Shown here: positions 4,766-7,074 of the stretch, piece by piece | Position numbering within the stretch: position 1 is the stretch's first letter | Layout: every line of letters starts with the position of its first letter | From: Bacteroidota bacterium | GTDB taxonomy: Bacteria > Bacteroidota > Bacteroidia > Bacteroidales > NBLH01 | DNA: 64,000 bases | NCBI GenBank assembly: GCA_025361565.1 | Contig: JANYKN010000116.1 | Span: 410,470 to 474,469 of the forward strand | Direction: 5' to 3' | Made by a program: the position numbers and the translations under genes | The notes under the pieces: generated by a model | What the model was told of the DNA's origin: nothing | Seen by the model: only the letters and a program-made list of their open reading frames with translations | Database searches by the model: none

Positions 4766-5362
4766 ATGGCAGATCAATACAAAACAATAAAGGAATATAC
4801 TGAAGGTAGCTTTAAAGACAGAGGCAGCCGTTTTCTTTCATTTGCCTTTCCTGTTGATAATGAATTGGAAGTAAACAAACACAGAGCAGATCTAAGAAAA
4901 AAGTATTTTGATGCAAAACATCACGTTTATGCCTTTCACCTGGGGGTCGACAATCCATTTTTCAGATCCAGTGATGATGGAGAGCCTTCAAATTCGTCAG
5001 GACCACCGGTATTAGGCCAAATTCGTTCCTTTGGACTTACTAATATTTTAATTGTTGTTGTAAGATATTTTGGTGGCACTAAATTAGGAGTTCCTGGATT
5101 AATAAATGCATACAAATCTGCGGCTTTTGATGCAATATCCAATGCACAAATTATTACTAAAAATATTGAATTTCAACTTATTGTTGAGTTTCAATACAAT
5201 GAAATGAATCATGTTATGCGTCTGTTAAAAAATGAAGGTGTTCGGATTATTTCTCAGAATTTCGAATCGAATTGTACTATCCAAATCCATGTTACTAAAC
5301 TGGTTTATGATAAACTGGTTGAAAATTTATTGAAAATAAAATCACTTCTAATTATTCCCTAA
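4766..5362 (+). CDS. YigZ/IMPACT-family (UPF0029) protein
   Basis: 198 residues, close to the usual length of about 200. The N-terminal UPF0029 domain shows the family signatures DDGEPSNSSGPPVLGQI (near residues 72-88) and VVVRYFGGTKLGVPGLI (near 97-113). A C-terminal ferredoxin-like DUF1949 region follows. The family includes E. coli YigZ and eukaryotic IMPACT; its bacterial biochemical role is not settled. The start lies 11 bp after the EamA gene, which suggests one transcript. Confidence 0.92.
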   Translation: MADQYKTIKEYTEGSFKDRGSRFLSFAFPVDNELEVNKHRADLRKKYFDAKHHVYAFHLGVDNPFFRSSDDGEPSNSSGPPVLGQIRSFGLTNILIVVVRYFGGTKLGVPGLINAYKSAAFDAISNAQIITKNIEFQLIVEFQYNEMNHVMRLLKNEGVRIISQNFESNCTIQIHVTKLVYDKLVENLLKIKSLLIIP

Positions 5363-5496: not shown

Positions 5497-5504
5497 TATC
5501 TTTG
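5497..5504 (+). promoter_or_regulatory. Candidate -7 box of the pyrBI promoter
   Basis: The word TATCTTTG matches the Bacteroidota -7 consensus TAnnTTTG exactly and lies 130 bp upstream of pyrB. No TTTG -33 box stands out at the usual distance, so the match is partial. The inferred start would be near 5510, giving a leader of about 115 nt that contains the short ORF at 5519 and the hairpin at 5560. Confidence 0.5.
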
Positions 5505-5518
5505 CTAAAATTATCCAG

Positions 5519-5626
5519 ATGACCAAGTGCATTCCAGATTATAATAATCAAAATCAATCAAAGCAAAGCCTTTTAAGCTTTGCTTTTTTTATATATATCC
5601 CTGTTAATCATTATAAATTAAGTTAA
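5519..5626 (+). CDS. Putative pyrBI leader peptide (pyrL-like, 35 aa)
   Basis: A 35-codon ATG-started frame whose TAA stop (5624-5626) directly abuts the pyrB ATG at 5627. It begins MTKCIPDYNN, runs straight through the terminator hairpin at 5560-5586 (from about codon 14) and its U-tract, and ends ...NHYKLS. This arrangement copies the E. coli pyrBI leader, where a 44-codon ORF crosses the attenuator and couples translation to transcription. No Shine-Dalgarno sequence is seen, which is normal in this phylum. No homology to E. coli pyrL is claimed; the evidence is positional. It could be a chance open frame. Confidence 0.45.
   Translation: MTKCIPDYNNQNQSKQSLLSFAFFIYIPVNHYKLS
5560..5590 (+). 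terminator. Rho-independent hairpin upstream of pyrB (candidate attenuator)
   Basis: A perfect 10-bp stem (AAAGCAAAGC / GCTTTGCTTT) with a 7-nt loop, followed by a run of T to 5590. It lies downstream of a TATCTTTG box and only 36 bp before the pyrB start, with no second promoter in that gap. pyrBI transcripts starting at 5.5 kb must therefore read through it. It may instead simply end the EamA-yigZ transcript. Confidence 0.75.
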
Positions 5627-6535
5627 ATGAAAAATAGAAGTTTAGTGTCGATTGAGGATTACTCAAAAGAGGAAATTCTAAGGATTTTAGAACTTTCGGA
5701 ATATTTTGAAAACAACCAGAATCAAAAATTGCTTGAGAACAAAGTGGTTGCTATGCTTTTTTATGAGCCATCAACCCGCACACGTTTAAGTTTTGAAAGC
5801 GCAGTAAATAGATTAGGCGGCAGGGTTATCGGTTTTAGCGATGCTGGAAGCTCAAGTGTATCTAAAGGAGAATCGTTGAAAGATACCATTCAAACTGTGA
5901 GCAAATATTCAGATCTAATTGTGATGCGCCATCCACTGGAAGGTGCCGCCAGATTTGCAAGCGAAGTATCGGATGTTCCGGTGATTAATGCAGGAGATGG
6001 CGCCAATCAGCATCCAACACAAACCTTGCTAGATTTATACTCAATTTTAAAAACCCAAGGTACTTTAAACGATCTAAATATATTTTTAGTGGGAGATTTA
6101 AAATATGGCCGCACCGTTCATTCATTACTTATAGCCTTGTCACATTTTAATCCTGTTTTTAATTTTATCGCTCATCCTAGGCTTCAAATTCCAAATGAAT
6201 ATAAAATTTATTTGAATGAATTGGGAATTAAGTACTACGAACATACCGAATTTTCAAGTATCATTTCAAAAGCTGACATTATATACATGACCAGGGTTCA
6301 ACGCGAAAGATTTACTGATCCTGTAGAATATGAAAAAATTAAAGATGTGTATGTTCTTAAAAATTCCATGCTTGATAACACCAAGCCAAATATGAGAATT
6401 CTTCATCCATTGCCAAGGGTAAACGAAATTGATATAGATGTTGATGATAACCCTAAAGCTTATTATTTTACTCAGGCTAAAAATGGAGTCTATACCAGGC
6501 AGGCTATTATTGCCAGCATCTTAGAATTAAATTAG
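5627..6535 (+). CDS. pyrB: Aspartate carbamoyltransferase catalytic chain
   Basis: 302 residues, full length. It catalyses carbamoyl phosphate plus L-aspartate to N-carbamoyl-L-aspartate, the first committed step of pyrimidine synthesis. The carbamoyl-phosphate motif STRTR is at residues 49-53, HPTQTLLDL near 128-136, and the aspartate-binding HPLPR near 265. It is followed 77 bp later by the regulatory chain pyrI, so an allosteric c6r6 holoenzyme is expected. The 5' leader looks like an attenuator. Residues between the two active-site motifs match the family well, and no damage is visible. Confidence 0.98.
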
Positions 6536-6612: not shown

Positions 6613-7074
6613 ATGAAAGAAGAAAAAACATTACAGGTAAATGCAATTAAAGATGGTACTGTAATAGACCATATTCCAGCAAAAAATCTTTTTAAGGTAA
6701 TCAAAGTATTAAACCTTGGAACACTTATAGATACTGTTACTTTTGGGTCGAACCTTGAAAGTAAAAAACTTGGAAAAAAAGCAATTATCAAAATGAGCAA
6801 TAAGTATTTTGATGATGAAGAAATCAACAAATTAATTTTAGTTGCTCCCCAGGCTAGATTGAATATAATAAAAGACTACCAGGTAGTTGAAAAAAAGCAA
6901 GTTAAGGTTCCTGAAACTATTTTAGGAATAGCTAAATGTGTAAATCCAAAATGTATAACCAATAATGAAAATGTACTCACTAAATTCAAAGTGATGTATA
7001 ATAAAAGTGTTGATTTAAAATGCTTGTATTGCGAAAAAATCACTGATCAGGATCACATTGTAATCAATAGCTAA
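6613..7074 (+). CDS. pyrI: Aspartate carbamoyltransferase regulatory chain
   Basis: 153 residues, the usual size. The N-terminal allosteric domain begins LQVNAIKDGTVIDHIPA, the nucleotide-binding region of PyrI proteins. The C-terminal zinc domain has four cysteines in the pattern CVNPKC...CLYC (near residues 110-140), which holds the contact with PyrB. It lies 77 bp after pyrB on the same strand and ends just before a strong terminator, so pyrBI forms a two-gene operon. The regulatory chain binds CTP/ATP in characterised enzymes. Confidence 0.97.
   Translation: MKEEKTLQVNAIKDGTVIDHIPAKNLFKVIKVLNLGTLIDTVTFGSNLESKKLGKKAIIKMSNKYFDDEEINKLILVAPQARLNIIKDYQVVEKKQVKVPETILGIAKCVNPKCITNNENVLTKFKVMYNKSVDLKCLYCEKITDQDHIVINS

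Follow-up and report, generated by a model that had tools for sequence, protein, structure and literature searches.

The pyrBI operon of E. coli is controlled by UTP-sensitive attenuation, in which a 44-codon leader ORF extends across the terminator, and a U-rich region before the hairpin, where RNA polymerase pauses, is a further feature of this system. In E. coli K-12, the leader ORF pyrL (b4246) has its ATG 88 nt before the hairpin and its stop 44 nt past the point where the hairpin begins, and pyrB follows 30 nt beyond the hairpin. PyrR-dependent pyr attenuation likewise has a terminator upstream of pyrB. Passages of two published works describe how tight ribosome coupling across pyrL prevents the terminator (PMC5021804, PMC4824070). 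In the Bacteroidota, passages of a study on Flavobacterium psychrophilum report strong indications that amino-acid operons are attenuated by leader peptides (PMC9723704), and passages of a Bacteroides study call short ORFs in long 5′ UTRs ‘reminiscent of leader peptides’ (PMC7366714); those proposed attenuators share the phylum with the system described here, and pyrB is not named in those passages. Full-text searches of open-licence papers showed, among the papers listed, no report of translation-coupled attenuation of pyrimidine synthesis in this phylum.

Here we examine the pyrBI locus of a window (the whole stretch of 64,000 nucleotides that was analysed) taken from a 6.76-Mb draft genome, whose family consists of one genus, with seven genomes in our comparison set. 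An earlier note on this DNA had proposed E. coli-type attenuation with a pyrL-like ORF, and the features it named, namely TATCTTTG, a 35-codon ORF, a 10-bp hairpin with a T7 tract and 36 nt to pyrB, proved real when checked against the sequence. The elements and genes of the locus are as follows.

4766..5362, + strand: YigZ/IMPACT-family gene upstream of pyrB (TIGR00257, 145 bits, below the cut-off of 167.95)
5497..5504, + strand: promoter box TATCTTTG, matching the Bacteroidota -7 box TAnnTTTG (sequence)
5509, + strand: predicted transcription start, giving a 10-nt 5′ UTR (from the box placed at -12 to -5, and the sequence)
5519..5626, + strand: candidate leader-peptide ORF of 35 codons, running across the hairpin and lacking conservation in the genus (sequence)
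5560..5586, + strand: terminator-like hairpin, proposed attenuator (perfect 10-bp stem 5560-5569/5577-5586, 7-nt loop)
5584..5590, + strand: T7 tract (sequence)
5627..6535, + strand: pyrB, aspartate carbamoyltransferase catalytic subunit (TIGR00670, 369.7 bits)
6613..7074, + strand: pyrI, aspartate carbamoyltransferase regulatory subunit (TIGR00240, 155.9 bits, cut-off 148.55)

As in E. coli pyrBI/pyrL, a predicted promoter, a predicted intrinsic terminator and then some 30-50 nt precede the pyrB of pyrBI, and in relatives from other families the short ORF across the terminator is shared as well. The ORF opens with the ATG at 5519, comprises 35 sense codons and closes with TAA at 5624-5626, abutting the pyrB ATG at 5627; the 36 nt between the T7 tract and pyrB span 5591-5626, and the stop of the YigZ/IMPACT-family gene lies 197 nt 5′ of the hairpin. 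The RNA fold of the 144-nt stretch 5497-5640 is not unusually stable (z -1.43).

The hairpin itself exceeds what chance would give, as six of the seven genomes of the genus each hold a single copy of the pattern GCAAAG-N3..12-CTTTGC-N-TTTTT, just 5′ of pyrB, and the seventh, G004, has none. Among the genus loci the loops vary, and pairs of the stem are kept despite two-sided changes (the innermost pair going from C-G to U-A and outer pairs from A-U to G-C), with a U-U mismatch at the outermost position in L006; the change from A-U to G-C on both sides of outer pairs is also seen in another family (L053/L115). In addition, a TAnnTTTG-type box lies 54-62 nt 5′ of the hairpin in all six same-genus loci.

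The ORF of the window, by itself, is not evidence for a leader peptide, because, when the 55-nt leader is shuffled, 31.7% of the versions also carry a first-ATG ORF that passes the hairpin, and none of the five sister loci has one, which leaves the window as the only such case among the six genus loci. All six fail the stricter ORF test used below. In the alignment, ATGACCAAGTGC of the window stands opposite TTGACAAAGTGA in L004, where start and frame are lost, with a TTG at the start position and a stop at codon 4, and no ATG is present in L004 within 45 nt of the box. In L005, there is an ORF of 12 codons with its stop starting 1 nt ahead of the hairpin, and in L006-L008 the short ORFs (4-8 codons) are tails of the upstream gene. 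Of the two features whose lack of conservation in relatives the earlier note took to count against its reading, the hairpin is kept within the genus and the frame is not.

For the wider comparison, pyrB upstream regions were drawn from named genomes, the family of the window, its order, two further families and fetched stretches. At 1e-60, matches were found in 272 of the 295 genomes of the order, which is represented by 30 loci and 54 upstream stretches of higher-ranked places and not by all 272, and in 55 of 60 and 45 of 47 genomes of the two further families. From 265 loci, 250 were placed as this pyrB, the excluded ones being other carbamoyltransferases, the divergent pyrB of G004 and a short stretch (L215); setting aside four with less than 150 nt upstream (L175 is cut by a contig end) left 246, and removal of 44 near-duplicates left 202. 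Unnamed loci were given the family names that we take to be theirs.

In 85 of the 202 dereplicated regions, the stem of a terminator ends no more than 115 nt from pyrB, and a perfect box stands 25-230 nt before the hairpin in 65 of these 85. From these, 51 (50 without L065, whose ORF is the tail of the upstream gene) combine an ATG no more than 12 nt from the box with a frame that remains open at least as far as 16 nt short of the hairpin, where dinucleotide-preserving shuffles of the leader predict 2.2; when the ATG is allowed within 20 nt, the figures are 55 of 65 against 3.9. Examples are L040, L049, L064 and L022. In a scan for boxes and ATGs, loci with a stem give 71 boxes, 56 of them with an ATG within 12 nt and 50 with an ORF of at least 24 codons, and the control of 117 loci without a found stem gives 72, 23 and 12, respectively. 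Of the 12 control ORFs, 8 are missed architectures. Box-ATG scanning and folding revealed eight further full architectures with interrupted stems, which the stem finder had missed, in seven Marinifilum-kind loci (including L045) and in L210. On this sequence evidence, a pyrL-like system of leader ORF plus terminator is strongly supported in several other Bacteroidales families. The proposal of E. coli-type attenuation with a pyrL-like ORF is partly supported: the expectation that relatives would show an ORF spanning a conserved terminator holds strongly for several other families, whereas in the genus hairpin and box are conserved but the frame is not, and the ORF of the window, which shuffling yields so often, is not supported. 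The relatives differ from E. coli pyrL in that their leaders are mostly 92-172 nt long and their ORFs may stop as early as 14 nt ahead of the hairpin or as late as past the pyrB ATG.

Further properties of these leaders were taken from a set of 62 or 63 loci with a TAnnTTTG or TAnnTTTA box and an ATG within 20 nt; as this set was chosen for having the ORF, the presence of the ORF is tested only by the shuffle comparison above. L065 is counted in the 63-locus sets (composition, U-clustering, antiterminator) and dropped from the 62-locus set. In 27 of the 62, no more than 15 nt lie between the end of the leader ORF and the start of pyrB, with 12 in an ATGA overlap and 3 abutting the ATG. This closeness may mean translational coupling, although pyrB usually begins with ATGA, which forces part of it; the ORF of the window is of the abutting kind.

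The contrast between the genus and the other families bears on a reading in which the genus has an attenuator without any leader ORF, governed by nucleotide-dependent RNA polymerase speed or another factor, and the ORF of the window is accidental. Box and hairpin are present in all six genus loci, the hairpin-spanning first-ATG ORF in only one, and the ORF of the window is expected at 0.32, all of which this reading accommodates. However, the ORFs of L005 and L202 (12 and 11 codons) would suffice for a ribosome to cover the 5′ arm, and the system of the other families is ORF-based; we therefore consider an attenuator lacking an ORF rather unlikely, if worth keeping in mind. L202 belongs to another family and has a leader as short as those of the genus, and the stop of its 11-codon ORF begins 8 nt before the hairpin. 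We favour, with some confidence, the view that the hairpin is the pyrBI attenuator and that the window has either this mechanism, reduced to a minimal ORF, or one derived from it. It would then be a reduced or decayed case of the pyrL-like system, in which promoter and terminator have been kept and the ORF is short or decayed.

Attenuation presupposes that pyrBI transcripts pass through the hairpin, and the earlier claim that they must do so is supported as probable. There is no box in the 36 nt after the window hairpin, and a perfect TAnnTTTG between hairpin and pyrB is found in none of the 62 leader-ORF loci and in one of the six same-genus loci, the exception being L005 with a perfect TAAGTTTG at -46. 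The eight extra loci with interrupted stems have no perfect box within 45 nt of pyrB. By comparison, of 109 loci in which no terminator was found, 30 have a perfect box within 60 nt of pyrB, and a relaxed TAnnTTTn occurs after the T-tract in 4 of the 62 leader-ORF loci versus 68 of these 109, a comparison of 62 with 109 loci that is indicative, as the interval lengths differ.

L001, L004 and L005 have a YigZ-like neighbour 106-197 nt before the hairpin, and L006-L008 have another ORF of 250-314 codons ending 5-13 nt before it. Because the same hairpin is kept beside different upstream genes, it belongs with pyrB, and from these sequences it looks like a pyrB attenuator and not like the terminator of a neighbour. 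Were it instead an insulator, terminating the upstream gene while pyrB is served by another promoter, the short distance to the upstream stop in L006-L008 and the box after the hairpin in L005 would be readily explained, and some Bacteroidales hairpins do look so (AGCCCCG..CGGGGCT in L059, L065, L212 and L222). For loci such as these four an ordinary upstream-gene terminator is likely. For the window genus it is unlikely, and the insulator appears to us distinctly improbable there: the same hairpin goes with two upstream genes, it stands 106-197 nt from the YigZ-like gene in L001, L004 and L005, the interval before pyrB is free of perfect boxes in the window and in the leader-ORF loci, and a conserved box precedes the hairpin in six of six loci. 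The window hairpin is probably the pyrBI attenuator. In L006-L008, the pyrB box lies inside the 3′ end of the 250-314-codon ORF, and this ORF does not stand before pyrB in L001, L004 and L005.

Over 23 pairs of leader ORFs, a few of which are hardly alignable (e.g. L066/L151, L064/L115 and L137/L181), substitutions by codon position number 115/115/151, a weak third-position excess (p 0.033), and indel lengths modulo 3 number 24/29/20 and are thus not multiples of three. Strong conservation of the peptide was rejected, the signal being weak and the indels not keeping the frame. The peptide sequence seems barely conserved, and selection would act on the openness of the frame rather than on its sequence. 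As in E. coli pyrL, the sequence of the peptide is apparently unimportant and no antiterminator structure was detected, since pairing with the 5′ arm of the hairpin rises above its own 95th percentile in only 1 of 63 loci.

These properties also bear on an amino-acid-type leader peptide, in which stalling at control codons would switch between alternative RNA structures. A leader ORF with a terminator is what such a system needs, and Phe is enriched in the leader ORFs (11.6% versus 4.7% in pyrB), but runs of at least four identical residues within seven codons number only 8, spread over five residues, in the 63 loci, and alternative pairing is confined to that single locus. With neither control-codon runs nor alternative hairpins in the 63 loci, we rejected this reading, which is very improbable; the same two features separate the present system from the leader-peptide attenuators proposed for other Bacteroidota.

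The earlier note had remarked that no clear U-rich pause region is visible, and this agrees with the window sequence. In 50 paired loci, the U fraction of the 60 nt leading up to the hairpin is 0.34, compared with 0.26 for pyrB, A is equally high, and U does not cluster before the hairpin relative to shuffles in the 63 leader-ORF loci. A U-rich pause before the hairpin was thus a candidate that could not be demonstrated, and in this, as in the lack of conservation of the window-genus ORF, the system differs from E. coli pyrL.

A further difference from E. coli pyrL is where the relatives’ ORFs begin, mostly 4-9 nt after the box, which predicts 5′ UTRs of 0-5 nt. The offsets of the ATG from the box cluster at 4, 7 and 9 nt (11, 19 and 15 of 65). 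In F. psychrophilum, the sigma-A box TAnnTTTG is placed at -12 to -5 in the passages concerned (PMC9723704); if this position holds here, these offsets would correspond to 5′ UTRs of 0, 3 and 5 nt, and the window would have one of 10 nt. According to parts of the same two studies, 5′ UTRs below 10 nt make up about 3.7% of those in Bacteroides (PMC7366714), and leaderless mRNAs 5.5% in F. psychrophilum (PMC9723704). Moreover, where the ATG follows the box at an offset of 7 nt, 23 of the 25 loci have TTT between the two, mostly in one family, and T runs such as GATTTTG directly precede the leader ATG in L026, L040, L128, L141, L041, L132 and others. It is possible that such a run is a site of UTP-dependent slippage. 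One could then speculate that the Bacteroidales pyrBI attenuator has a leaderless or near-leaderless ORF and may sense at initiation through this slippage, an idea that we put forward tentatively and hold to be unlikely. A ribosome would load on the 5′ end once it has emerged and trail RNA polymerase into the terminator; U residues added or omitted before the AUG would decide whether the leader is translated, so that leaderless initiation would respond directly to UTP with no need for a U-rich pause.

PyrR is the regulator to be expected if this terminator were controlled as in PyrR-dependent attenuation, with the protein binding the leader. In other orders of the class, pyrB is commonly linked to PyrR, which was found in 19 of 20 fetched upstream stretches. 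In contrast, no PyrR exceeds the cut-off of 138 in G000, the genome of the window (23.1 bits), or in any of the 39 genomes whose pyrB follows a terminator; 37 of these are leader-ORF genomes, and the other two, G307 (L086) and G308 (L089), have the terminator and failed the ORF test; the best PyrR-family match among the 39 reaches 82.8 bits (G230), under the cut-off. Rfam matches in the window are limited to two tRNAs, and none was found in 14 leader loci. PyrR control, which we regard as extremely improbable, was accordingly rejected on the lack of a PyrR above the cut-off and of a PyrR RNA element in the window and these 14 loci, and in both respects the system departs from PyrR-dependent pyr attenuation, with which it shares the terminator upstream of pyrB.

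Outside the order, the listed pyrB matches are 33-47% identical to that of the window, except for G549 (65%), which has a Bacteroidales-type pyrB and is the twentieth stretch, lacking PyrR. The divergent pyrB type from outside the order (L281-L299) has PyrR upstream in 19 of 19 stretches, mostly adjoining. G004, the genus member devoid of the hairpin, has a different pyrB type (39% identical) beside a PyrR gene; this pyrR-pyrB pair (L009/L273) resembles the kind of other orders and would reflect a replacement or a contaminating contig. Across the class, these data suggest two solutions, PyrR beside pyrB in other orders and a leader ORF with a terminator in some of the Bacteroidales. When the trait is mapped on a pyrB tree of 137 rows (L065 being wrongly scored as positive), 14 changes suffice, whereas shuffles require about 44-45 and none of 500 came as low. 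The trait is concentrated in a single region, with 51 positives among 73 rows, and has separate spots in the window genus, L053/L115, L124 and L028. The tree fits one ancient origin with losses and several gains alike.

The mechanism that we propose builds on the promoter box, the hairpin, the T-tract, their conservation and the open frame in relatives, as read from the DNA. Transcription would start at about nt 5509, and a fraction of RNA polymerase would stop at the T-tract 5584-5590 after about 80 nt, the rest reading into pyrBI. In the other families, a near-leaderless short ORF would run from the promoter into the hairpin, where a ribosome close behind RNA polymerase would cover the 5′ arm and allow read-through, and a lagging one would let the terminator form. 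Termination in vivo and its dependence on translation and ribosomes are what this model predicts, and by analogy with E. coli pyrBI the signal may be low UTP, slowing RNA polymerase. If true, this would place translation-coupled attenuation of pyrimidine synthesis in the Bacteroidota and offer a natural test of whether ribosomes closely follow RNA polymerase there. It would also add dozens of short genes, predicted to be near-leaderless, to a phylum with few such starts.

Two individual loci deserve mention. The nearest pyrB from another family (L100, 80% identical) is preceded at about 23 nt by a perfect hairpin, AAAGGTC/GACCTTT, with no T-tract, perhaps a decayed attenuator. Finally, one metagenome-assembled genome (JAIBEZ01) holds two pyrB copies, L026 and L040, which are 94% identical and each preceded by a leader ORF and a hairpin, reflecting either a duplication or mixed strains.
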